In this document: in pieces, positions 6,764 through 64,000 of the stretch | How positions within the stretch are numbered: position 1 is the stretch's first letter | Layout of the letters: every line of letters begins with the position of its first letter | Assembly: GCF_000523235.1 (NCBI RefSeq) | Contig: NZ_CP006850.1 | Coordinates: 2,356,001 to 2,420,000 of the forward strand | Source: Nocardia nova SH22a | Lineage (GTDB): Bacteria > Actinomycetota > Actinomycetes > Mycobacteriales > Mycobacteriaceae | Reading direction: 5' to 3' | DNA length: 64,000 bases | The notes under the pieces: model-generated | Databases searched by the model: none | What the model saw: only the letters and a program-made list of their open reading frames with translations | What the model was told of the DNA's origin: nothing | Position numbers and translations under genes: made by a program

Positions 6764-8139
6764 TGTCCGAACTCGAATCGGTGGCCCTCACCGGCTATCG
6801 GACCTATCGCCAGGCGGAGCTGAATCCGGCACGTGCCGTGCGGGTTCCGCTCATCGCGGTGCTGTTGCTGGTCGGGGTGGTGCTGCTGTACGCGGCCGAT
6901 CGCGCCTCCCGCGAGGGTGTCAATCGCGGCTGGTTCGTGGCGGTGTCGCTGTCGGGACTGTTCATCGCGCGCGGACTGCATCTGCGCCGCCCGATCACCC
7001 TGCCGCACTTCACCGTCGCGGTGATCGTGCTCGGGGTCTCCAATATCGCCTACCGCGGCGATCACGCGGGAGTCGGCTTCGTCTGCCTGGCCTCCACCGG
7101 GCTGATCCTCATGCTGCCGCAGGGGTCGCGGGCCCAGCCCGATCAGTTGTCCCGGGTCGCGGCGCTGGTCGATCGGACGGTCGAGGATCCGCTGGCGCCC
7201 TTCGCCCTGCATTCGGCGAAGTCCTACTTCTTCAGCACCGATTCGACGGCCGCGATCGGTTACCGCGCGCGCTTCGGTATCGCGGTGGTCGCCGGTGATC
7301 CGATCGGCAAATGCGCCGAATTCGGCACCCTGATCGCGGAGTTCTCCGACTTCGCGGCCGGGCGCGGCTGGCGGGTCGCCGTACTGGGCGCCAGCCCGGC
7401 GATGACCGAGCTGTGGCGCACCCGGGCCGCCGATCATCACGGTCTGCGTGCGATTCCGATCGGCCGCGATGTCGTGATCGACGTCGGTTCCTTCGACATG
7501 GTCGGCCGGAAATTCCGCAATCTGCGCCAGGCCGTCAGCCGCACCCGCAACTTCGGCGTGAAGACCGAGGTGATCCCCGAACGCGAACTGGACCGGGAAC
7601 TGCGCGAGACGCTGCTCGGCATCGTCGACGAGTGGGGCACCGGCCATCAGACCCGCGGCTTCTCGATGATCCTCGATCATCTGCTCGACGGGCGGCATCC
7701 GGGCATGCTCGTGGTGCTCGCGCGCGATGCCGACGGCCGGGTCGCGGGCTTCCAGCGCTACGGCTCCTCCAACAACGGCGGTGAACTCAGCCTCGACGTG
7801 CCGTGGCGGCGCAAGGACGCGCCCAACGGCCTGGACGAGCGGATGATCGTTGATCTGGTCGACTACGGACGCGATCACGAGGTCAAGCGAATCTCGCTGG
7901 CGTTCGCGGCCTTTCCCGAACTGTTCGCCGACAAGGAGCGCTCGCGCTCGAAGCAGGCCATCTATGTGCTGGCCCGCACGCTCGATCCGCTGATCCGCCT
8001 GGAGTCGCTGTACCGGTTCCTGCGCAAGTTCAACTCCTTCGGCAATCAGCGGTTCGTGCTCATCCGCTGGCGCGAGATCGTCTTCACCGCCGCGGCCCTG
8101 CTCACGCTGGAGTTCGTGCCGCATCGCAAGCAGGGCTGA
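6763..8139 (+). CDS. DUF2156 / MprF-C-like acyltransferase, membrane anchored
   Basis: Protein of 458 residues. The N-terminal ~120 residues hold several hydrophobic segments (e.g. VPLIAVLLLVGVVLLYA and LPHFTVAVIVLGV), then a soluble DUF2156 domain like the C-terminal domain of phosphatidylglycerol lysyltransferases (MprF, LysX). Recognisable parts are SAKSYFFSTDSTAAIGY, VVAGDPIG, VGRKFRNLRQAVSRT and a terminal RFVLIRWREI. In that family the domain uses aminoacyl-tRNA to modify lipids, or is an uncharacterised GNAT-like transferase. There is no lysyl-tRNA synthetase domain here, so the donor is unknown. ATG 6763 was chosen because it overlaps the stop of the upstream small frame and follows GGAGA; GTG 6760 is an alternative. 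Confidence 0.82.
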   Translation: MSELESVALTGYRTYRQAELNPARAVRVPLIAVLLLVGVVLLYAADRASREGVNRGWFVAVSLSGLFIARGLHLRRPITLPHFTVAVIVLGVSNIAYRGDHAGVGFVCLASTGLILMLPQGSRAQPDQLSRVAALVDRTVEDPLAPFALHSAKSYFFSTDSTAAIGYRARFGIAVVAGDPIGKCAEFGTLIAEFSDFAAGRGWRVAVLGASPAMTELWRTRAADHHGLRAIPIGRDVVIDVGSFDMVGRKFRNLRQAVSRTRNFGVKTEVIPERELDRELRETLLGIVDEWGTGHQTRGFSMILDHLLDGRHPGMLVVLARDADGRVAGFQRYGSSNNGGELSLDVPWRRKDAPNGLDERMIVDLVDYGRDHEVKRISLAFAAFPELFADKERSRSKQAIYVLARTLDPLIRLESLYRFLRKFNSFGNQRFVLIRWREIVFTAAALLTLEFVPHRKQG

Positions 8140-50202: not shown

Positions 50203-50382
50203 CCATCGAGCATGACACCAACCGCCCGGACATGATCGCCCCGGACCACCGGCCGGGCCCCGTGGTCCCGGCGCGCCGATCGGGGCATGCAATCGCCCAC
50301 ACCCGCCTCCACCTGCGGGTATCCGTCCGTAGCATCGATCGTGGAACGCGGACCGAGCGGTACGGACGAGGAAGGCGACGCG

Positions 50383-53300
50383 GTGGCGAGTGCCCGGAGC
50401 GAGCTGGCACAGCGGCTCGACGCGCTCTACACCGCCGCCGGGTCGCCACCGCTGAAGGCCGTCAGTGCCCGGGCGACGCGGGAGGTGCGGGCTCGCAATC
50501 CGCGGGGCCGGGAGGTGAGCGCGCAACGGATCTCCGACTGGCGCCTCGGACGCAGTGTGCCCGCGAAATTCGACGGATTGTCGGCGGTGCTCGGGGTACT
50601 CGTGGCCGCCGCCCGGCAGCGTGAGCCCGAACCCGCCCTGCCGGGACTGTATTCGATGACCGGTTGGCACAAGCTGTGGTCGCGCGCGCAGACCGAACGC
50701 GCCGCCGACCGGCCCGCCGCGCCGATGGTGTGCCCGTATCCGGGCCTGGCCGCGCTGACCATCGGCGACGCGGAATTCTTCGCCGGTCGCGACAGCCAGA
50801 TCGACACCATGCGCGAGCGCTTCGACCGCAACCGCGGCAGCGGGGAACCGCTCATCCTGGTCGGCGATTCCGGGGTCGGGAAATCCTCCCTGCTGCAGGC
50901 CGGATTCGCGGCCCGGGTCCAGGACGAATTCGACGTGCTGCTGGTGACTCCCGGCGCGGTCGGCGCCGCGGACCTCGAAACCTGGGCGGCCGAGCGGGCC
51001 TCGGAGGCGAAACCGTACATCCTCGCCGTCGATCAGCTCGAGGAATTGTTCCTGCCGCCCTTCGACGACGGCTCCGCCGACCACTACCTCGGCATTCTCA
51101 CCACACTGGCGGTGCGCGGCCCGGCCGAACCGGGACGGTGCGCGGGCGTGGTGGCGGCCCTGCGCGCCGACTTCTACACCCACGCCGCCCGGCATCCGGC
51201 GCTGGCGGCCCTGCTCGAGCACAATCAGATGCTGCTCGGCCCGCCGACCGCCGAGGAACTGACCGCCGCGGTGGTCGAACCCGCCCGCAGACAGAACCTG
51301 CGCATCGGCGACGGCCTCGTGGAGTTGATCCTCGCCGATCTGGGGGTGCGCGGCGCCGGCGCCGACCCCGCCATCCGGGCGGGCACCTTCCCGCTGCTCG
51401 CGCACGCGCTGCGCAGCACCTGGCAGTTCCGCGACGGCGATGTCATGAGCGTGCGGGCCTACGAACAGGCGGGCGGGGTGCGCGGCGCCATCGCCGCCAG
51501 CGCCGAACAGTTGTGGCAGACCTTCGGCCCGCGTGATCGCGCGACCGCGCGCACCCTGCTGCTGCACCTGGTCACCCCGGTCGCCGACGGCACCGCGGTG
51601 GGGCGCCACGCCGACCGCGAGACCCTGATTCGTGGCTGCCCCGACCGTGATTCGGCGAATGCCGTGCTCAACGCGATGGCCGAGGCGCGCATCATCACCC
51701 AGGACGCCTACGGCACCTCCCTCGCCCACGATGCGGTGCTCAGCGCCTGGCCGCGGCTGGCCGAATGGATCGACGAGGACCGCGAGGACGCGATCGTGCG
51801 TCACCGGCTGCGCACCGACGCCGACGAATGGGAGGCCGCCGGACGCGACCGCGCCCTGCTGTACCGGGGCAGCCGGTTGGCGGTGGCGAGGGATCTGCGG
51901 TCCCGGATGCCCAACGCGCTCTCGGAGCGGGGCGTGGAATTCCTGGACGCGGCCGAACTGGTCCGGCGGCGGCAGCGCCTGGCATTGCGCGGGCTGGCGT
52001 TGTTCCTGGTCGTCGGGGCGGTGGTGACCTCGGCGCTGGCGATCGTGTCGATGCGCCAGACCCATCGCGCCGAAGCCGAACGCTCCGACGCCCAGTTCGC
52101 CGCGCTCATCGCCGCCGCCCAGCACGATCAATCCGCCGATCCGACCGAATCGGCACAGCTCGCGCTGGTGGCCGAGGCGCAGCGTCCGGGTGATCCGCAG
52201 GCCCGCGGTCTGCTGCTGGCCTCCCAGTCCGCACCGCTGGCCGCGACCGTGCCCGCCGGTCAGGGCGCGATCTACGGTGTGGCGCAATCGCATTCGGGGG
52301 TGGTCGCCTCCGGCGGCTACGACAATGCCGTCCGGTTGTGGCGGCGGGATCCGGCGCAGGGCCTGATCGCGTTCGGTCCGGCCCTGCCCACCTCCTCGTG
52401 GGTCTCGTCGGTGGCCTTCGCACCGGACGGGCGGACGCTGTTCGCCGCGACCGGTTCGGGCGTGGTGCATCGGTGGGACGTCTCCGATCCCGCCCGTCCG
52501 GTGCGCGCCGCCGACATCGACCTGGGGCACCGGGGCGCGGTGTACTCGGTGGCGGTGCGTGCCGACGGCCGCTGGATCGCCACCGCGGGCGACGACAGCA
52601 CGGTGCGCCTGCACGATCTGGTGTCCGGCACGACCACGACCCTGACCGGACATACCGGCCCGGTCCGGACGGTGGCGTTCAGTCCGGACGGCAATACCCT
52701 CGCCAGCGGTAGCGACGACCGGACGGCGCGGGTCTGGGACGTCACCGATCCGGCCACCGCGCATCCGCTCGGCGCACCGCTCACCGGTCAGGCGCTGGCC
52801 ATCCATTCCGTCGCCTTCGACCCGGACGGCACGACGCTGGCCACCGGCAGCGACGATCAGACCTTCCGGTTGTGGTCGACGCGCGACCGCAACGCGGTCA
52901 CCGCCCTCGGCCCGCCCGTGGACGCCGGGGCGGCGGCGGTCTGGTCACTGGCCTTCGCCCCCGACGGCTGGACACTCGTCACGGCGGGACGCGACGGCAC
53001 GGCCGCGCTGTGGGGCCTCACCGATCCCCGGCGTCCGGTGCCGGTCAGCATGCCGATGAACGGCAGCCGCGGTGCGCTGGCCGCCGCGGTGTTCCTCGAC
53101 GGCGAACAGGTCCTGACCGGCGGGCAGGCGGGCAGCCTGCAGGTGTGGACGCTGTCACCGGCGGTGGCTGCCGGGCACACCGGCCTGGTGCAGGCGCCGA
53201 GCATCGACGCCGCGGGCACCCTCATGGCCACCGGATCCTGGGACGGCCAAGTCCTGTTGTGGGACACCACCGGCGCCACCCCGCGCCGGATCGCCGCCGT

Positions 53301-54189
53301 GCTGCCGCTCGCCGACGACATGCGCGTGGAGAACGTCGCCCTCGCTCCCGACGGCCGAACCTTGGCGGTGACCCGCTCCGACACCGGCGACGTCCTGCTG
53401 TTCGACACCAGCACCCCGGCCGCGCCCCGGCCTCTGACCACGCTGTCGGTGCCCGACGCCCGCTACGCCCACGAGATCGCCTTCTCCCCGGATTCGCGGC
53501 TGCTGGCCACCGCCTCCGGCGACACCAGCGTCCAACTGTGGGATCTCGCCGACCGGGAGCATCCCGCGGCCCGCCCGGATCCGCTGACCGGGCCGGGTGG
53601 CTGGGTCAACGCGGTGGCCTTCGCACCGGACGGGTCGCGGCTGTACGCGGTGTCGGGGGAGGGGCGGTTGCACGGCTGGGATCTGCGCGCGAATCAGCGG
53701 ATCTCCACCGTGCTGGCCGTTCATCGCGGTGCGTTGAACGCGCTGTCGATCAGCCGCGACGGCAGCCTGATCGCCACCGGCGGCGACGATCAGATCGTCC
53801 GCGTGCTGCGGCTGCGCGGTGATCGCGCCGAGGAGGTGTCCGCGGTGAGCGGTCACACCAGCACGATCCGGTCGGTGAGCTTCGATCCGGCCGCGGATCT
53901 GCTGGCCACCGGCGCCGACGACCAGACCGTGCGGCTGTGGTCGATGTCCGATCCGGCCGCACCGCGAGCCGTCGGCCCCTCGATCGTGCCGCGCGGCACC
54001 GTCCGCTGGCGGGTGCAGTTCGGCCCCACCGGCATGCTGGCCGCGGGCGGCGAGAACGCCGTTCTGAGCTGGATGACGACCGACACCCGCGCCGCCGCCG
54101 CGCGGGCGTGCACCGCGACCAACGGCACCGAACTCGACGACGAGTGGCAACGCTGGAACGCCCGCCTCGCCGACGCCTGCGCCCGCTGA
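50383..54189 (+). CDS. nSTAND ATPase with 14 WD40 repeats
   Basis: 1268 residues from GTG 50383 (GAGGAAGG upstream; GTG 50341 possible). Residues 1-80 form an XRE-like helix bundle (RISDWRLGRSVPAKFDG). Residues ~125-500 are an nSTAND ATPase with GDSGVGKSS (161-169; Lys167) and ILAVDQLEELF (Asp217). One transmembrane helix lies near 535-556 (LALFLVVGAVVTSALAIV). A helical linker follows (ADPTESAQLALVAEAQRPGD). From ~620 to 1240 there are 14 WD units (SVAFAPDG..., TVAFSPDG..., RLWSM etc.), enough for two seven-bladed propellers. Such proteins signal in development or defence; the trigger is unknown. Confidence 0.9.
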   Translation: MASARSELAQRLDALYTAAGSPPLKAVSARATREVRARNPRGREVSAQRISDWRLGRSVPAKFDGLSAVLGVLVAAARQREPEPALPGLYSMTGWHKLWSRAQTERAADRPAAPMVCPYPGLAALTIGDAEFFAGRDSQIDTMRERFDRNRGSGEPLILVGDSGVGKSSLLQAGFAARVQDEFDVLLVTPGAVGAADLETWAAERASEAKPYILAVDQLEELFLPPFDDGSADHYLGILTTLAVRGPAEPGRCAGVVAALRADFYTHAARHPALAALLEHNQMLLGPPTAEELTAAVVEPARRQNLRIGDGLVELILADLGVRGAGADPAIRAGTFPLLAHALRSTWQFRDGDVMSVRAYEQAGGVRGAIAASAEQLWQTFGPRDRATARTLLLHLVTPVADGTAVGRHADRETLIRGCPDRDSANAVLNAMAEARIITQDAYGTSLAHDAVLSAWPRLAEWIDEDREDAIVRHRLRTDADEWEAAGRDRALLYRGSRLAVARDLRSRMPNALSERGVEFLDAAELVRRRQRLALRGLALFLVVGAVVTSALAIVSMRQTHRAEAERSDAQFAALIAAAQHDQSADPTESAQLALVAEAQRPGDPQARGLLLASQSAPLAATVPAGQGAIYGVAQSHSGVVASGGYDNAVRLWRRDPAQGLIAFGPALPTSSWVSSVAFAPDGRTLFAATGSGVVHRWDVSDPARPVRAADIDLGHRGAVYSVAVRADGRWIATAGDDSTVRLHDLVSGTTTTLTGHTGPVRTVAFSPDGNTLASGSDDRTARVWDVTDPATAHPLGAPLTGQALAIHSVAFDPDGTTLATGSDDQTFRLWSTRDRNAVTALGPPVDAGAAAVWSLAFAPDGWTLVTAGRDGTAALWGLTDPRRPVPVSMPMNGSRGALAAAVFLDGEQVLTGGQAGSLQVWTLSPAVAAGHTGLVQAPSIDAAGTLMATGSWDGQVLLWDTTGATPRRIAAVLPLADDMRVENVALAPDGRTLAVTRSDTGDVLLFDTSTPAAPRPLTTLSVPDARYAHEIAFSPDSRLLATASGDTSVQLWDLADREHPAARPDPLTGPGGWVNAVAFAPDGSRLYAVSGEGRLHGWDLRANQRISTVLAVHRGALNALSISRDGSLIATGGDDQIVRVLRLRGDRAEEVSAVSGHTSTIRSVSFDPAADLLATGADDQTVRLWSMSDPAAPRAVGPSIVPRGTVRWRVQFGPTGMLAAGGENAVLSWMTTDTRAAAARACTATNGTELDDEWQRWNARLADACAR

Positions 54190-54738: not shown

Positions 54739-55518
54739 ATGACCGACGCATCACCGGGTCCGGCCGGGCACGACACACCGCCGGCCGCAGTACCGTCTCC
54801 CGATCCACGGCCCCGGATTCGGGACCGTGTCCGGCAGGTGGCGGGCTCGCTGGTGCTCGCGGCGATGACCGCCATGGTTCCGCTGGCCTTCGCACCGGCG
54901 CTGCCCGCGTCGGCGGCGGTGACGCAACCCGGTGTGGAGAATCCGGCGGCGCGGGCCGCGGTCCTGGATCTGGTCGGCGATCATCCGGAGTCGGTGACGC
55001 TGCCCGCGGACTTCGCGGCGGGGGCGGGGTATCGGCCCGTCGTCGAGAACGGGATCATGCTCGACCCGGTCGGTGACTGCTCGTCGCCGATCCAGCTGCC
55101 CGGTGAGTTCACCGAGGCGTGCAAGGCACACGACCTGGGCTACGACATCCTGCGCTATGCCGAACAGCGCGGGCAGCCGCTGCACCCCTGGGCCCGGCAG
55201 GCGATCGACGCCACGCTGCAGCGGCGCATGCACGCCGCCTGCGACGTCCGCCCCGACACCGCCGCCCGCGCCCGCTGCGACGTTCTGGCCACGGTCGCCA
55301 CGACCGGAGTGGACCTGAACTCCCGCCGCCAGAACTACGCCACTCCGGACCCGGAATATCTGTTCGGCGCCGAACTGTCCGGTGAGCGCCTCAGCGATCA
55401 GCTGCTGCACTTCGGCGGGCCCGCCGCGCTGGGCCTGGTCCTCGCGTCCATCGTCGGCGTGGTGACCTGGCGGCGGCTGCGTCCGCTCCCGGCCGTCGCC
55501 GCCGGTGCCGTCGGATGA
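54739..55518 (+). CDS. Prokaryotic phospholipase A2-like secreted or anchored protein
   Basis: 259 residues. A membrane segment at about 37-60 (LVLAAMTAMVPLAFAPALPASAA) acts as signal or anchor. The mature domain holds FTEACKAHDLGY with His131-Asp132, the C-x2-HDxGY signature of prokaryotic PLA2 (PF09056), with Asp157 a candidate for the second catalytic Asp and Cys residues (114, 128, 168, 180) for disulfides. A second transmembrane helix (about 226-245) precedes a short tail. Release of fatty acid from membrane phospholipids is inferred. It is coupled to the next gene. Confidence 0.75.
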   Translation: MTDASPGPAGHDTPPAAVPSPDPRPRIRDRVRQVAGSLVLAAMTAMVPLAFAPALPASAAVTQPGVENPAARAAVLDLVGDHPESVTLPADFAAGAGYRPVVENGIMLDPVGDCSSPIQLPGEFTEACKAHDLGYDILRYAEQRGQPLHPWARQAIDATLQRRMHAACDVRPDTAARARCDVLATVATTGVDLNSRRQNYATPDPEYLFGAELSGERLSDQLLHFGGPAALGLVLASIVGVVTWRRLRPLPAVAAGAVG

Positions 55519-59634: not shown

Positions 59635-60375
59635 ATGGGTACCGAGGAGCAGTCGTCCGGAGTTCCGGACGGGGGAGGCCGCGACGCCGCGCCGTCGCGA
59701 TTCGCGAACAGTGAACGGCCGCCGATCTTTCCGGTGTGCCTGGTGATCGATGTGTCGGCGTCGATGGAGGGGGCGCCGATCACCTCGGTCAACGAGTCCC
59801 TGCCCGGAATCCGCTCCGCCATCCTGGACGATCCGAGCGTCGAGGAAGTGGCCCGGGTCGCGCTGGTGACCTTCTCCGAATCCGCGAAAATCGCTCTGCC
59901 GCTGTCGGATCTGCGTCGCCAGACCATGCCGCGGTTCGAGGTCGAGAGTTCCACGAATTTCGCCGAGGGTCTGCGCGCGGCACGGGAGGCGATCGAGACC
60001 GGCATCGGCGGACTCGGCCGCGGCACCCGCTTCTACCGTCCCGTCGTCTTCTTCTTCAGCGACGGTGAGCACAACGCGCCCGAGGACTGGAAACCGGCGT
60101 GGCGTCGGCTCGTCGCCCGCGAGGACAAGTTCGGCGCCGAGGTCGTGAGTTTCGGTATGGGCCGGGCGAACAAGGACGCGATCCGCGCGGTGTCGACGCG
60201 CTACGCCTACTACGCCAGCGCCCCCGATCCCGGCACGGCCGTGCGGGCGATTCTGCAGAGCATCATCGGCACGATCGGCACCACCTCGCGCTCCTTCGCC
60301 TCGGCCAGCGGCGGGACCCTGCTGGTGCCGCCCACCGAGGGATTGGTGCAGCTGCCCGAGCACGTCATCGAATGA
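59635..60375 (+). CDS. von Willebrand factor A domain protein (TerY-like)
   Basis: 246 residues from ATG 59635 (GGGGAGGGG upstream). A Ser/Gly-rich head leads to the VWA domain with a MIDAS CLVIDVSASMEGAP (Asp39, Ser41, Ser43), STNFAEGLRAA (MIDAS Thr) and FFFSDGEHN (MIDAS Asp). The TerY-type end SASGGTLLVPPT is present. It overlaps the PP2C gene by four bases (ATGA) and opens the triad. In TerY-P systems the VWA protein is thought to bring other partners to the kinase/phosphatase. Confidence 0.85.
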   Translation: MGTEEQSSGVPDGGGRDAAPSRFANSERPPIFPVCLVIDVSASMEGAPITSVNESLPGIRSAILDDPSVEEVARVALVTFSESAKIALPLSDLRRQTMPRFEVESSTNFAEGLRAAREAIETGIGGLGRGTRFYRPVVFFFSDGEHNAPEDWKPAWRRLVAREDKFGAEVVSFGMGRANKDAIRAVSTRYAYYASAPDPGTAVRAILQSIIGTIGTTSRSFASASGGTLLVPPTEGLVQLPEHVIE

Positions 60376-61271
60376 CGCACTCCGGCGAGCGTCCCGTCCG
60401 GGACTTCTCGTTCAACGAAACGGCCTCCGCGGCACCGCGGGTCGGCGAACTGAGCATCCCGCCCGCGCCGCGCCTGGCGGCCGGTCCGGCCGCACTGCCG
60501 GCCGAACGCGCCGACGCCGGGCTCCTCGCGGGCCGCTGGATCGCCGCGGCCTCCGTCGCGGGCCGGGCGCACACCGCCCAGGGCACCTCCGCGCAGGATT
60601 CCTACCGGATCGCCGCCTGTGACGACGGTTCCGCGATCGTCGTCGTGGTCTGCGACGGTCTCGGCTCCCATCCCGCCACCTCGCAAGTGGGCGCGGAGAT
60701 GCTGGCCCGATTCGCCTGCGCGCACGCGCAACCGATCACCGCGGACCAGGCGGCCGAGGCGGGCGCGGAGATCCTGGCCGATCCGATCCGCCGGGCCTGC
60801 GACTCACTGGAGCGCTGGCGTCGCACGACCGCACCGGACGTGACGAGCGACGAATTGCGTTGTACCGCACTGCTGTGCCGCATCCCCGCCGACGGTGCCG
60901 GCCCGGCACTGTTCGCCCGCGCGGGCGACTGCGAGGCCTTCGTCCTGCGAAACGGCCGGTACGACACCGTCTTCCAGGCCCCGGAGCCCGGCCCCGCCAA
61001 TGTGGTGCGGCAGGCGCTCCCGCATCCCGACCCGCCCTCGCTGCTGCGGTTCGCGCGGTCCGACGCCGAGGACGACCGAATCCTGATACTCACCTCCGAC
61101 GGTGTCGCGAACGACATCTTCGACTCGCCGACCGTGCGCAACTGGCTGGCCGAGCGCTGGGCCGATCCCTGCGGCACCGCGTGGATGCTGGACTCCCTGC
61201 GGTACCGGACTCCGGGATCGCACGACGACCGCACCGCCGTCGTGATCTGGCCGCCGACCGGAATCGGATAA
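60372..61271 (+). CDS. PP2C-type protein phosphatase
   Basis: 299 residues from ATG 60372, overlapping the VWA stop. PP2C metal motifs are visible: AQDSYRIAA, VVVVCDGLGSHP (metal Asp-Gly), ILTSDGVANDIF and the terminal GSHDDRTAVVIW with the metal Asp. A ~65-residue head precedes the domain. It stops two bases before the kinase start. The phosphatase probably reverses phosphorylation by the kinase next to it. Confidence 0.85.
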   Translation: MTHSGERPVRDFSFNETASAAPRVGELSIPPAPRLAAGPAALPAERADAGLLAGRWIAAASVAGRAHTAQGTSAQDSYRIAACDDGSAIVVVVCDGLGSHPATSQVGAEMLARFACAHAQPITADQAAEAGAEILADPIRRACDSLERWRRTTAPDVTSDELRCTALLCRIPADGAGPALFARAGDCEAFVLRNGRYDTVFQAPEPGPANVVRQALPHPDPPSLLRFARSDAEDDRILILTSDGVANDIFDSPTVRNWLAERWADPCGTAWMLDSLRYRTPGSHDDRTAVVIWPPTGIG

Positions 61272-61273
61272 CC

Positions 61274-64000
61274 ATGCCGGAGACGGTGATCGGCGAATTC
61301 GGCGGCGCCTACCAGGTCGAGGACACACCGCTCAACACCTCCGGCGGGCAGTCGGTGCTGTTCCGGTGCCGCGACCGGGACGACGAGGAACGGGTGTACA
61401 AGCGGTACAACGAACCGCTGACCGCGCCCGAGGCGGTGACCAGGCTGCGCGAGGTGGTCGAACGCGGCCGTCGCGTCGCGGCCTCCGCGGAAAAGCTGCT
61501 GCCGCTGTCGAAACCGGCCACCTTCGTCAACTGGCCGATAGATCTCGTCGAGTCCGGCGAGCACGTCGTCGGCGTCGTCCTGCCGTGGATCCCGCCGCAG
61601 TTTCTGCGTGACGACGGGCGCCCCCGCACCTTCGACTACCTGTGCCTGGCCTCCGCGGATCCGCCGAAATCGGTGTTCCGCGTACGGGTCCTGCGGCATC
61701 TGTGCCGGATTCTGCAGGCTGTCGACGACGCCGGACTCGTGCACGGTGACATCTCGGCCAAGAACATCGTCTGGAGTGAGGGCCGCCCACACGCCTATCT
61801 GATCGACTGCGACGGTATGCGCCCGGCCGATGCCACCGATGTGCGCGGCGTCGGCACCGAAGGCTGGCGCGATCCGCGCTGGGTGGCCGGCCGCATCTCC
61901 GCACACGACGGCTTCAGCGACCGGTTCGGCCTCGCGGTCGCCCTCTACCGCGGCCTGTTCCTCAATCCGGGCGCCCCCGTGCTGGTCCGCGGCGACTGGC
62001 ACCCGCCGACGGGCATTCCGGCCGGGCTCGCACCCCGGCTGCGCGCGCTGTTCGACCGCGCCTTCGCCGAACCGTTCACCACCGAGGACCGCCCGTCGCC
62101 GGCCGAATGGGGCCGCGCCCTCACCGCCGTCCACTTCACCCGCATCGGCGGGTTCCGGCGCCGCCGCCCGCTGGCCGTGCTGGAGCGTCACGCCGGGCAG
62201 TACCGGGACGAGATCGCGGACGGCCCGCAGCGGTCCGAACCCCTGCCGCCGGAAGCCGAATTCCAGCGCTGGCACGATCAACTCGGATATCGCCACTCGG
62301 TGTGGTCCGCCGGCGGCGCCCGCAACGCGCGGCTGCTCACCGGTGCGGAACTGCGCGATGCCCGCAGATGGCAACGGCGCCACCGTGATCGGATGTCGGC
62401 CGCCGAGAACGCCTTCATCAAGCGGAGCACGCTCTACACCCGTCGCCGGGCCCTCATCGTGGCGATGGTTCTGATCATCGCCCAGACGGCCGAGCTGATC
62501 GCCTATCACCACCGCGGTGATCAGGTATCGCAGATCGCCGCCGCCGACCTGTCGGACAAGGCGGCACGACTACGGCGCACCGACCCCTACGGCGCACTGC
62601 AACTCGATCTGCGCGCCCATCGCACGAACCGTTCCGCCGCCCTTCCCGCCGTCTACACCGCGGACCGGTACGTTCCCGACTACCTGTACGCCCGGCAGGA
62701 TTCGAGTCCGCCGCAACCCACGGCGAGCAGCGCGCCGTCGAGCCCACCCGCCGCCGATCCGCTCGACCTCGGCCAGCTCACCCTGCTGTACCAGACACAG
62801 ACGATGAGCCGCTCGATCTCGGCCGACGGTTCGAAACTGGCCACGGTCGACGGGAATTCGACCACCGTCGTCCGGAGCATCAGCGAAGGTTCCGTCGAAT
62901 CCGAATCCCTGACGAAGATCTTCGGCCCCACCGACGCCACCGTGTCCGAGCCGGTGCTGAGCCGCGACGGGCGTTATGTGGTCGTCCTCCAATCCGTTTT
63001 CGGGAATCCCAAGGTGGACCGGAACGGAAAGATGACCTTCGACTACGCGGCCCAGCCGACGTGTAAGCCGCCGAAAGATGTCATGTCCGCCCGTTGTCTG
63101 GCGGTGTACGACACGACCACGCACAAGGTCGCCTATGCCGCGCGGCTGGATGTGCCCGGCCCGGCGGACGGCTACGTCGCCGTCGGTATGGATCCCACGA
63201 ACCGTTTCGTCGGGCTGTCGGTGTCGACCGCCTCGGGCAACTCGTTCGACGACACCCTGTATCTGTACGACCTGCGGAACAAGGGCGCCCCGCGCAAGGT
63301 CGACCTGCCGTTCCACACCTTGGTCACCAATGTCTGGCTCGGTGCCGCGGCGGCCACCGCGGTCGTCTCCGGTCTCACCGTCCGGGAATCGGGACCCGGC
63401 TTCGACGGGGTGCTGCGATGGTCCGATCTGAATTCCGGCCGATCCGAGGAGATGGCCGGTGGAATCGACGGTGCGTCGCCCGCCGCGATGAGTCTCGACG
63501 GCCGCGTCGCCGCGGCCCTGGTACCGACGAGCGATCCGCACCGGGCGACCTTGACCACCTGGAACACCGACACGGGAGCGCTGCGAGCCCGGTACCCGGT
63601 GGCCGTCGACGGTGCGCAACGGCTCCTGGCCCTGGACCGTGACGGCGCGACGGCCTGGCTGTCCTACCTGCCCGCGAACCAGCCCCGGCTGCCGGACGCG
63701 GCGACGGCCGACGACCTCCTCGCCTGGCATCCACCCGCGAACCAGGTGACGGTGTACGACCTGGCCGACGGAAACACCCTCGCACAGGGGAGATTCGGCG
63801 GTGGCTGGACGTCGCTGGTGCCGCTGGGTGCTGGGCCGGGGGCATCGCTGCTGGCCGTCGACGGCAGCCTGCTCGGAATCGAGCTGTCCGGTGTCGGCGG
63901 TGACTCGCCGCTGCGTCGGCTCGGCGCCGCGCTCACCCCGCGCGCACCGGACCGGTCGGCACTGTGCGAGCGAATGGCCGATGTCGATGCCGACCGCGCC
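61274..64000 (+). CDS. Membrane-anchored protein kinase with beta-propeller tail, truncated by the window edge
   Basis: Open from ATG 61274 to base 64000 with no stop (909 codons). The kinase domain (about 1-280) has VYKRYNE (catalytic Lys43), HGDISAKNIVW (Asp159, Asn164 of the catalytic loop) and LIDCDGM in place of DFG (Asp178), as in TerY-associated kinases. A basic segment precedes one transmembrane helix at about 394-412 (ALIVAMVLIIAQTAELIAY). After it comes the linker DPYGALQLDLRAHRTNRSA, and from ~500 WD-like blades (SISADGSKLATVDG, AAMSLDGRVAAAL). The kinase is thus cytosolic and the propeller probably outside. It completes the VWA-PP2C-kinase triad. Confidence 0.85.
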   Translation, partial: MPETVIGEFGGAYQVEDTPLNTSGGQSVLFRCRDRDDEERVYKRYNEPLTAPEAVTRLREVVERGRRVAASAEKLLPLSKPATFVNWPIDLVESGEHVVGVVLPWIPPQFLRDDGRPRTFDYLCLASADPPKSVFRVRVLRHLCRILQAVDDAGLVHGDISAKNIVWSEGRPHAYLIDCDGMRPADATDVRGVGTEGWRDPRWVAGRISAHDGFSDRFGLAVALYRGLFLNPGAPVLVRGDWHPPTGIPAGLAPRLRALFDRAFAEPFTTEDRPSPAEWGRALTAVHFTRIGGFRRRRPLAVLERHAGQYRDEIADGPQRSEPLPPEAEFQRWHDQLGYRHSVWSAGGARNARLLTGAELRDARRWQRRHRDRMSAAENAFIKRSTLYTRRRALIVAMVLIIAQTAELIAYHHRGDQVSQIAAADLSDKAARLRRTDPYGALQLDLRAHRTNRSAALPAVYTADRYVPDYLYARQDSSPPQPTASSAPSSPPAADPLDLGQLTLLYQTQTMSRSISADGSKLATVDGNSTTVVRSISEGSVESESLTKIFGPTDATVSEPVLSRDGRYVVVLQSVFGNPKVDRNGKMTFDYAAQPTCKPPKDVMSARCLAVYDTTTHKVAYAARLDVPGPADGYVAVGMDPTNRFVGLSVSTASGNSFDDTLYLYDLRNKGAPRKVDLPFHTLVTNVWLGAAAATAVVSGLTVRESGPGFDGVLRWSDLNSGRSEEMAGGIDGASPAAMSLDGRVAAALVPTSDPHRATLTTWNTDTGALRARYPVAVDGAQRLLALDRDGATAWLSYLPANQPRLPDAATADDLLAWHPPANQVTVYDLADGNTLAQGRFGGGWTSLVPLGAGPGASLLAVDGSLLGIELSGVGGDSPLRRLGAALTPRAPDRSALCERMADVDADRA

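Follow-up and report, generated by a model that had tools for sequence, protein, structure and literature searches.

The third gene of a compact triad in Nocardia nova SH22a encodes a protein kinase whose membrane helix and β-propeller, fused to the kinase domain near residues 313-329, together are by sequence comparison the C-terminal half of an nSTAND1-type protein. Only one genome is known to contain this chimera, and the kinase seems, judging from the sequences of its relatives, to have exchanged its own ectodomain for the sensor half of a STAND protein. The explanation that we consider best, with a probability of about 0.6, is a membrane-located phosphorylation switch whose sensor has been swapped. 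The stretch analysed, here called the window, comprises 64,000 nt of NZ_CP006850.1 (genome coordinates C1:2356001-2420000), from a genome assembled as one contig of 8,348,532 bases (completeness 100%, contamination 0.2%). The triad and the parts of its kinase, in window coordinates, are as follows.

59635..60375, + strand: TerY/YegL-like VWA protein, 246 aa (Pfam VWA 6e-11; 27% to E. coli YegL over 173 aa; MIDAS columns)
60372..61271, + strand: PP2C phosphatase, 299 aa (PF13672, PP2C_2, 8e-23; weak profile match to PphC)
61274..64000, + strand, continuing past the window: chimeric putative receptor kinase, 925 aa
61274..62212, + strand: kinase domain, residues 1-313, of the triad-kinase family (61% to P0005; 60% to Nocardia crassostreae L026; pLDDT 89.6; tree)
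62213..62257, + strand: fusion junction, residues about 314-328 (alignment ends no later than 321 for the best kinase relative and begins at 329-330 for the nSTAND1 relatives)
62258..62449, + strand: helical stalk, residues 329-392, matching the end of the nSTAND1 cytoplasmic part (aligned to P0031, P0032, P0002 and P0003; helices in the model)
62450..62506, + strand: predicted transmembrane helix, residues 393-411 (hydropathy scan; five Arg/Lys in the preceding 15 residues, one in the following 15)
62648..62788, + strand: disordered Ser/Pro-rich linker, residues 459-505 (pLDDT under 50)
62792..63922, + strand: β-propeller of predicted extracellular location, residues about 507-883 (model and alignment)
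63923..64000, + strand: C-terminal cap with Cys898 (Cys924 lies beyond the window; alignment to nSTAND1-type relatives)

Genetically, the three genes are as tightly coupled as the initial annotation, made from the DNA letters alone, had described: the PP2C start shares the VWA stop codon in an ATGA overlap, and the kinase frame starts two bases after the PP2C gene and, followed beyond the window, closes with a TGA stop 52 bases past its end. All three products retain their catalytic or metal-site residues. The MIDAS of the VWA protein is complete (D39, S41, S43, T107 and D143) and the metal-binding Asp of the PP2C is invariant across 15 aligned rows, which, together with clear Pfam matches, bears out the original assignment of both proteins. 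The same is true of the kinase and its HGD and DCDG motifs, which are present along with K43 and N164; across 21 aligned rows K43, H157, D159 and D180 are invariant, with D178 replaced by Glu in one row and N164 by Thr in one row. For Pfam the kinase is divergent, and no Pkinase match to the protein was obtained; querying the PDB by sequence with the kinase domain yielded a single meaningless match (E 0.22), and a Foldseek search with its AlphaFold model returned protein kinases in the best 50 rows listed.

Several neighbouring genes were also considered. A 1300-aa nSTAND1-WD40 protein (nSTAND1 8.9e-90, seven WD40 stretches) is encoded some 5.4 kb upstream (window 50287-54189, + strand, as for the triad); the propeller as a copy of this gene was rejected, since the kinase, searched against its own genome at E up to 0.001, retrieved no protein other than itself. 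A small protein encoded at 54739-55515 (+ strand) matches prokaryotic phospholipase A2 weakly (3.6e-4, under the curated cut-off). The kinase gene is immediately followed, with abutting stop codons, by a convergent one whose 778-aa product (L002:6053-8389, - strand) has no Pfam match and, by eye, contains hydrophobic stretches; this protein was discarded as a partner, being absent from the listed clusters common to at least three of 18 compared stretches.

The triad had been assigned to the TerY-P type known from tellurium-resistance-associated systems. Compared with the products of E. coli yegL-pphC-yegI, the VWA protein matches YegL, which we take to stand for TerY-like VWA proteins, at 27% over 173 aa (profile 77 bits), the kinase matches YegI at 25% over 188 aa (pairwise 4e-6; profile 27 bits), and the PP2C gives nothing convincing against PphC by BLAST and 23 bits by profile, with all profile scores drawn from a target set of three sequences. 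On these alignments the VWA protein and the kinase appear clearly related to YegL and YegI, the YegI match itself being weak, and the PP2C weakly related to PphC; for the kinase, the relationship to triad kinases was established by the comparison with YegI. The TerY-P triad is reportedly due to Anantharaman et al. 2012. Portions of PMC11090510 and PMC4978471 treat it, the former describing a zinc ribbon at the C-terminus of the TerY-P kinase. In the Nocardia kinase the zinc ribbon is absent, the only cysteines ahead of the membrane helix being residues 32, 124, 144 and 179, with no C-x-x-C. The assignment consequently survives as TerY-P-like, by the matches to YegL, YegI and (weakly) PphC, and fails for the zinc ribbon, and the tellurium association, which is not required of all triads, was not supported: a search for the TerD family found four matches in the genome, the nearest 163 kb from the triad. 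A single 492-aa open frame at G000:C1:4464523-4465488, distant from the triad, contains two adjacent TerD-family matches. Taken together, the E. coli matches, the lack of a zinc ribbon and the distance to TerD place the triad, by its sequences, within the general TerY-P kind, as an actinobacterial membrane variety already noted in section 29 of PMC7159879.

Structurally, the kinase protein divides into two parts with separate relatives. No nSTAND1 NTPase domain was matched in it at E up to 1. A full-length protein search led to nSTAND1 proteins with PF13365, a trypsin-like domain, one of which is named a serine protease. A search with residues 315-925 added two further nSTAND1 proteins, and PF13365 occurs in 4 of the 5 relatives of the propeller half; these searches scored the 7992-7995 candidates sharing most words. 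P0031 (Streptomyces) aligns to residues 330-924 with 32% over 622 columns, and P0032 (Micromonospora) to residues 329-924 with 33% over 620 columns. Since the nSTAND1 match begins ahead of the membrane helix, the kinase would carry a cytoplasmic leftover as its stalk, and the junction falls within about 15 residues, because the best kinase relative reaches residue 321 at most and the nSTAND1 relatives start at 329-330. Four of the five nSTAND1-type relatives have counterparts of the propeller residues Cys597 and Cys608, and all five have counterparts of Cys898 and Cys924 of the cap. The fusion of a transmembrane helix and propeller to the kinase had been recognized from the start and holds, with the propeller fold supported by a structure model built on six sequences and of modest confidence; the main point, the nSTAND1-type origin of helix and propeller, had been missed.

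A protein search with the kinase found at least 26 proteins besides the query, the named ones from Nocardia, Streptomyces and Actinacidiphila. A triad-kinase match was present in 13 of 98 genomes of the genus, its own included, in 4 of 296 genomes in a class-wide search with the kinase domain, and in 1 of 200, its own, in an order-wide search with the full-length protein, these genome searches having scored part of the first-look candidates (9 of 24 in its own genome, G000, for the kinase in the genus). In a scan of named genomes 18 loci were located, of which 16 are actinobacterial, and the order VWA-PP2C-kinase on one strand occurs in 14 of these 16 (14 of all 18). Altogether 49 distinct kinases, this one included, were collected, and 48 had a readable tail, one that is incomplete at a contig end (L006/L031) being left out. 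A strong hydrophobic helix follows the kinase domain in 45 of the 48, with P0021, L034 and L041 below the helix threshold. The membrane span, which the initial annotation had held to be unusual, is thus ordinary, as also follows from portions of PMC13232886, where YegI is membrane bound, and of PMC7159879, where the actinobacterial sets are described.

Counts of cysteines beyond the helix were never odd in the 48 tails (one has no cysteine at all), against 28 of 48 odd counts ahead of the helix, and all five nSTAND1-type relatives likewise have an even count after the helix (placed by alignment in P0003). This absence of odd tail counts is as expected for disulfide-bonded ectodomains, although relatedness of the tails within groups means that the 48 cannot count as independent. 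The tails fall into 11 mutually dissimilar groups by BLAST at 1e-4, of which the propeller is one and the longest, with 514 residues versus at most 320 in the others. On this survey of helices, cysteines and tail groups, the little-studied triad-kinase family resembles a collection of receptor kinases whose ectodomains can be exchanged.

Evolutionarily, the sister of the Nocardia nova kinase is P0005 (SH-aLRT 97), which has a Cys-rich tail of 166 aa, and both are nested in a clade of 27 kinases that bears five other tail types and whose members of known origin are from Nocardia; this tree was inferred by a quick method and contains three long branches (P0030, P0029 and L025). As the kinase is nested among small-tailed kinases, the propeller is best read as a derived state. 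The propeller half was not found in any other genome among the candidates scored in 118 genomes of the genus and 197 of the class (in its own genome, 11 of 26 and 6 of 26 first-look candidates, respectively), for which reason it probably came from another actinobacterial family.

Other loci of the survey differ in their surroundings. Triad-kinase paralogues (L007-L025 in congeners, L039 and L041; P0023, P0024 and P0027) mostly carry a related tail of about 216 aa; the loci L007-L025, L039 and L041 contain no VWA or PP2C gene within the stretch examined, and in three proteins of the paralogue set HGG replaces HGD, so that these may be pseudokinase receptors. In Nocardia crassostreae (L026:1027-7998), a gene for a 1790-aa DUF3686 AAA ATPase is followed by an overlapping triad, and its product is a possible partner there. 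Six Streptomyces loci (L030, L032, L033, L034, L035 and L036) have a common open frame upstream of the triad, which in L034 (4950-5837) matches a RES domain, and five of the six have a large opposite-strand gene beyond it. In Acrocarpospora (L038:2509-6300 and L040:2508-6302), a gene for 1263-1264 aa is divergent to the triad, and the L038 protein shows NACHT/STAND matches under cut-offs.

Functionally, the catalytic residues, the gene order, the fusion, the helix and the propeller can be read from the sequence, and the switch that we propose would build on them as follows. Outside the cell, the propeller would bind a ligand (a protein, glycan or wall fragment), and the signal would pass through the stalk and helix and alter the pairing or activity of the kinase, which would phosphorylate itself and a partner. 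The PP2C would take the phosphate off, and the MIDAS-bearing VWA protein, a putative partner, may bind the target or carry the output. Support for autophosphorylation with reversal by a PP2C comes by analogy from a relative, YegI, which according to a portion of PMC13232886 autophosphorylates and is dephosphorylated by PphC. The idea that kinase and propeller make a one-protein receptor, already put forward in the initial annotation, is kept as the best reading, the propeller prediction having held. More tentatively, and at rather less than even odds, we posit that actinobacterial STAND immune-type NTPases and receptor kinases share one common pool of outward-facing sensor modules that can be swapped whole with their membrane helix, the propeller being a self-contained ligand sensor that could drive either an NTPase or a kinase.

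Alternatively, the fusion could be a chance product without a sensing role, in which the propeller merely anchors or decorates the kinase. Propellers often serve as scaffolds and the fusion turned up in a single genome (1 of 118 of the genus); however, 925 codons are open, the catalytic residues are kept, the two halves have similar third-position GC (0.888 and 0.838), and the propeller half retains its four cysteines at only 32-33% identity to its relatives and is thus not simply decayed, which together make this account unlikely. We consider somewhat less probable still an anti-phage or conflict module, in which the kinase would set off defence once the propeller detects an invader, as proposed for STAND systems. 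Such a role would suit the relatives of the propeller half, which are STAND NTPases with PF13365 in 4 of 5, the vWA/PP2C/kinase sets within proposed conflict systems in portions of PMC7159879 and PMC11090510, and the patchy spread of the triad kinase in the genus, but the operon is without an effector gene, PADLOC gave no match for the VWA protein or PP2C at E up to 1, and a propeller outside the cell would meet phage at the surface only. A known defence system was rejected as well: the PADLOC matches of the kinase are to 13 models (PD-T4-6, PglW, MkoA and STK_OB among them; best 2.1e-06, STK_OB E=0.029) and cover the kinase motif or, in one model, the kinase domain. That two unrelated genes were wrongly joined during assembly is highly improbable even though the fusion is seen in one assembly only, given the single 8.35 Mb contig, its 100% completeness and 0.2% contamination, the lack of a jump in third-position GC at the junction, and the foreign DNA that a misjoin would require, the propeller half being found nowhere else in its own genome or in 117 congeners among the candidates scored.

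As a proposed membrane phosphorylation switch with a swapped sensor, the natural kinase fusion would give the propeller of membrane nSTAND1 proteins, a putative sensor, a measurable output, phosphorylation, so that a ligand could be screened for, and the apparent replacement of the ectodomain suggests that sensors are movable between signalling machines.

Among known systems, E. coli yegL-pphC-yegI likewise encodes a VWA protein, a PP2C and a membrane-bound kinase together, but in K-12 an opposite-strand gene lies between pphC and yegI, and YegI has another tail, by eye with C-x-x-C and hydrophobic stretches, and without a propeller. With the TerY-P triad, the Nocardia set shares a TerY-like VWA protein with MIDAS, an adjoining PP2C and a Ser/Thr kinase, whereas its kinase is of the membrane receptor form without a zinc ribbon and no TerD gene is nearby. 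The nSTAND1-TM-propeller proteins (P0031, P0032, P0002 and P0003) correspond from the end of their cytoplasmic part to the C-terminus to kinase residues 329-924, and have an NTPase (in some with a protease-type domain) where the Nocardia protein has a kinase. The kinase of PkwA is of the classical type and is not known to belong to a triad. Pfam holds GAP1 models, and GAP1 was not matched in 10 proteins around the window triad or in 15 neighbours elsewhere (plus one triad PP2C), part of the neighbours having been scanned. Section 29 of PMC7159879 describes actinobacterial kinase-TM, PP2C and vWA sets in GAP1-N2 neighbourhoods, where an active kinase, in some with TM helices, adjoins a PP2C and a lone vWA; the Nocardia triad resembles them in lying on one strand and in the membrane helix of its kinase, and differs in its propeller, none being named on that kinase in this section. 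PkwA, a Ser/Thr kinase with WD repeats in the relevant portion of PMC6113231, also unites kinase and propeller in a single actinobacterial protein, a likeness taken from its description and not from a sequence comparison. In the portions of the literature searched, a triad kinase with an ectodomain from an nSTAND1-type protein was not found; relative to these sources, the triad, the membrane kinase and kinase-propeller proteins as such are already known, and what is new is the triad kinase with an nSTAND1-type ectodomain.
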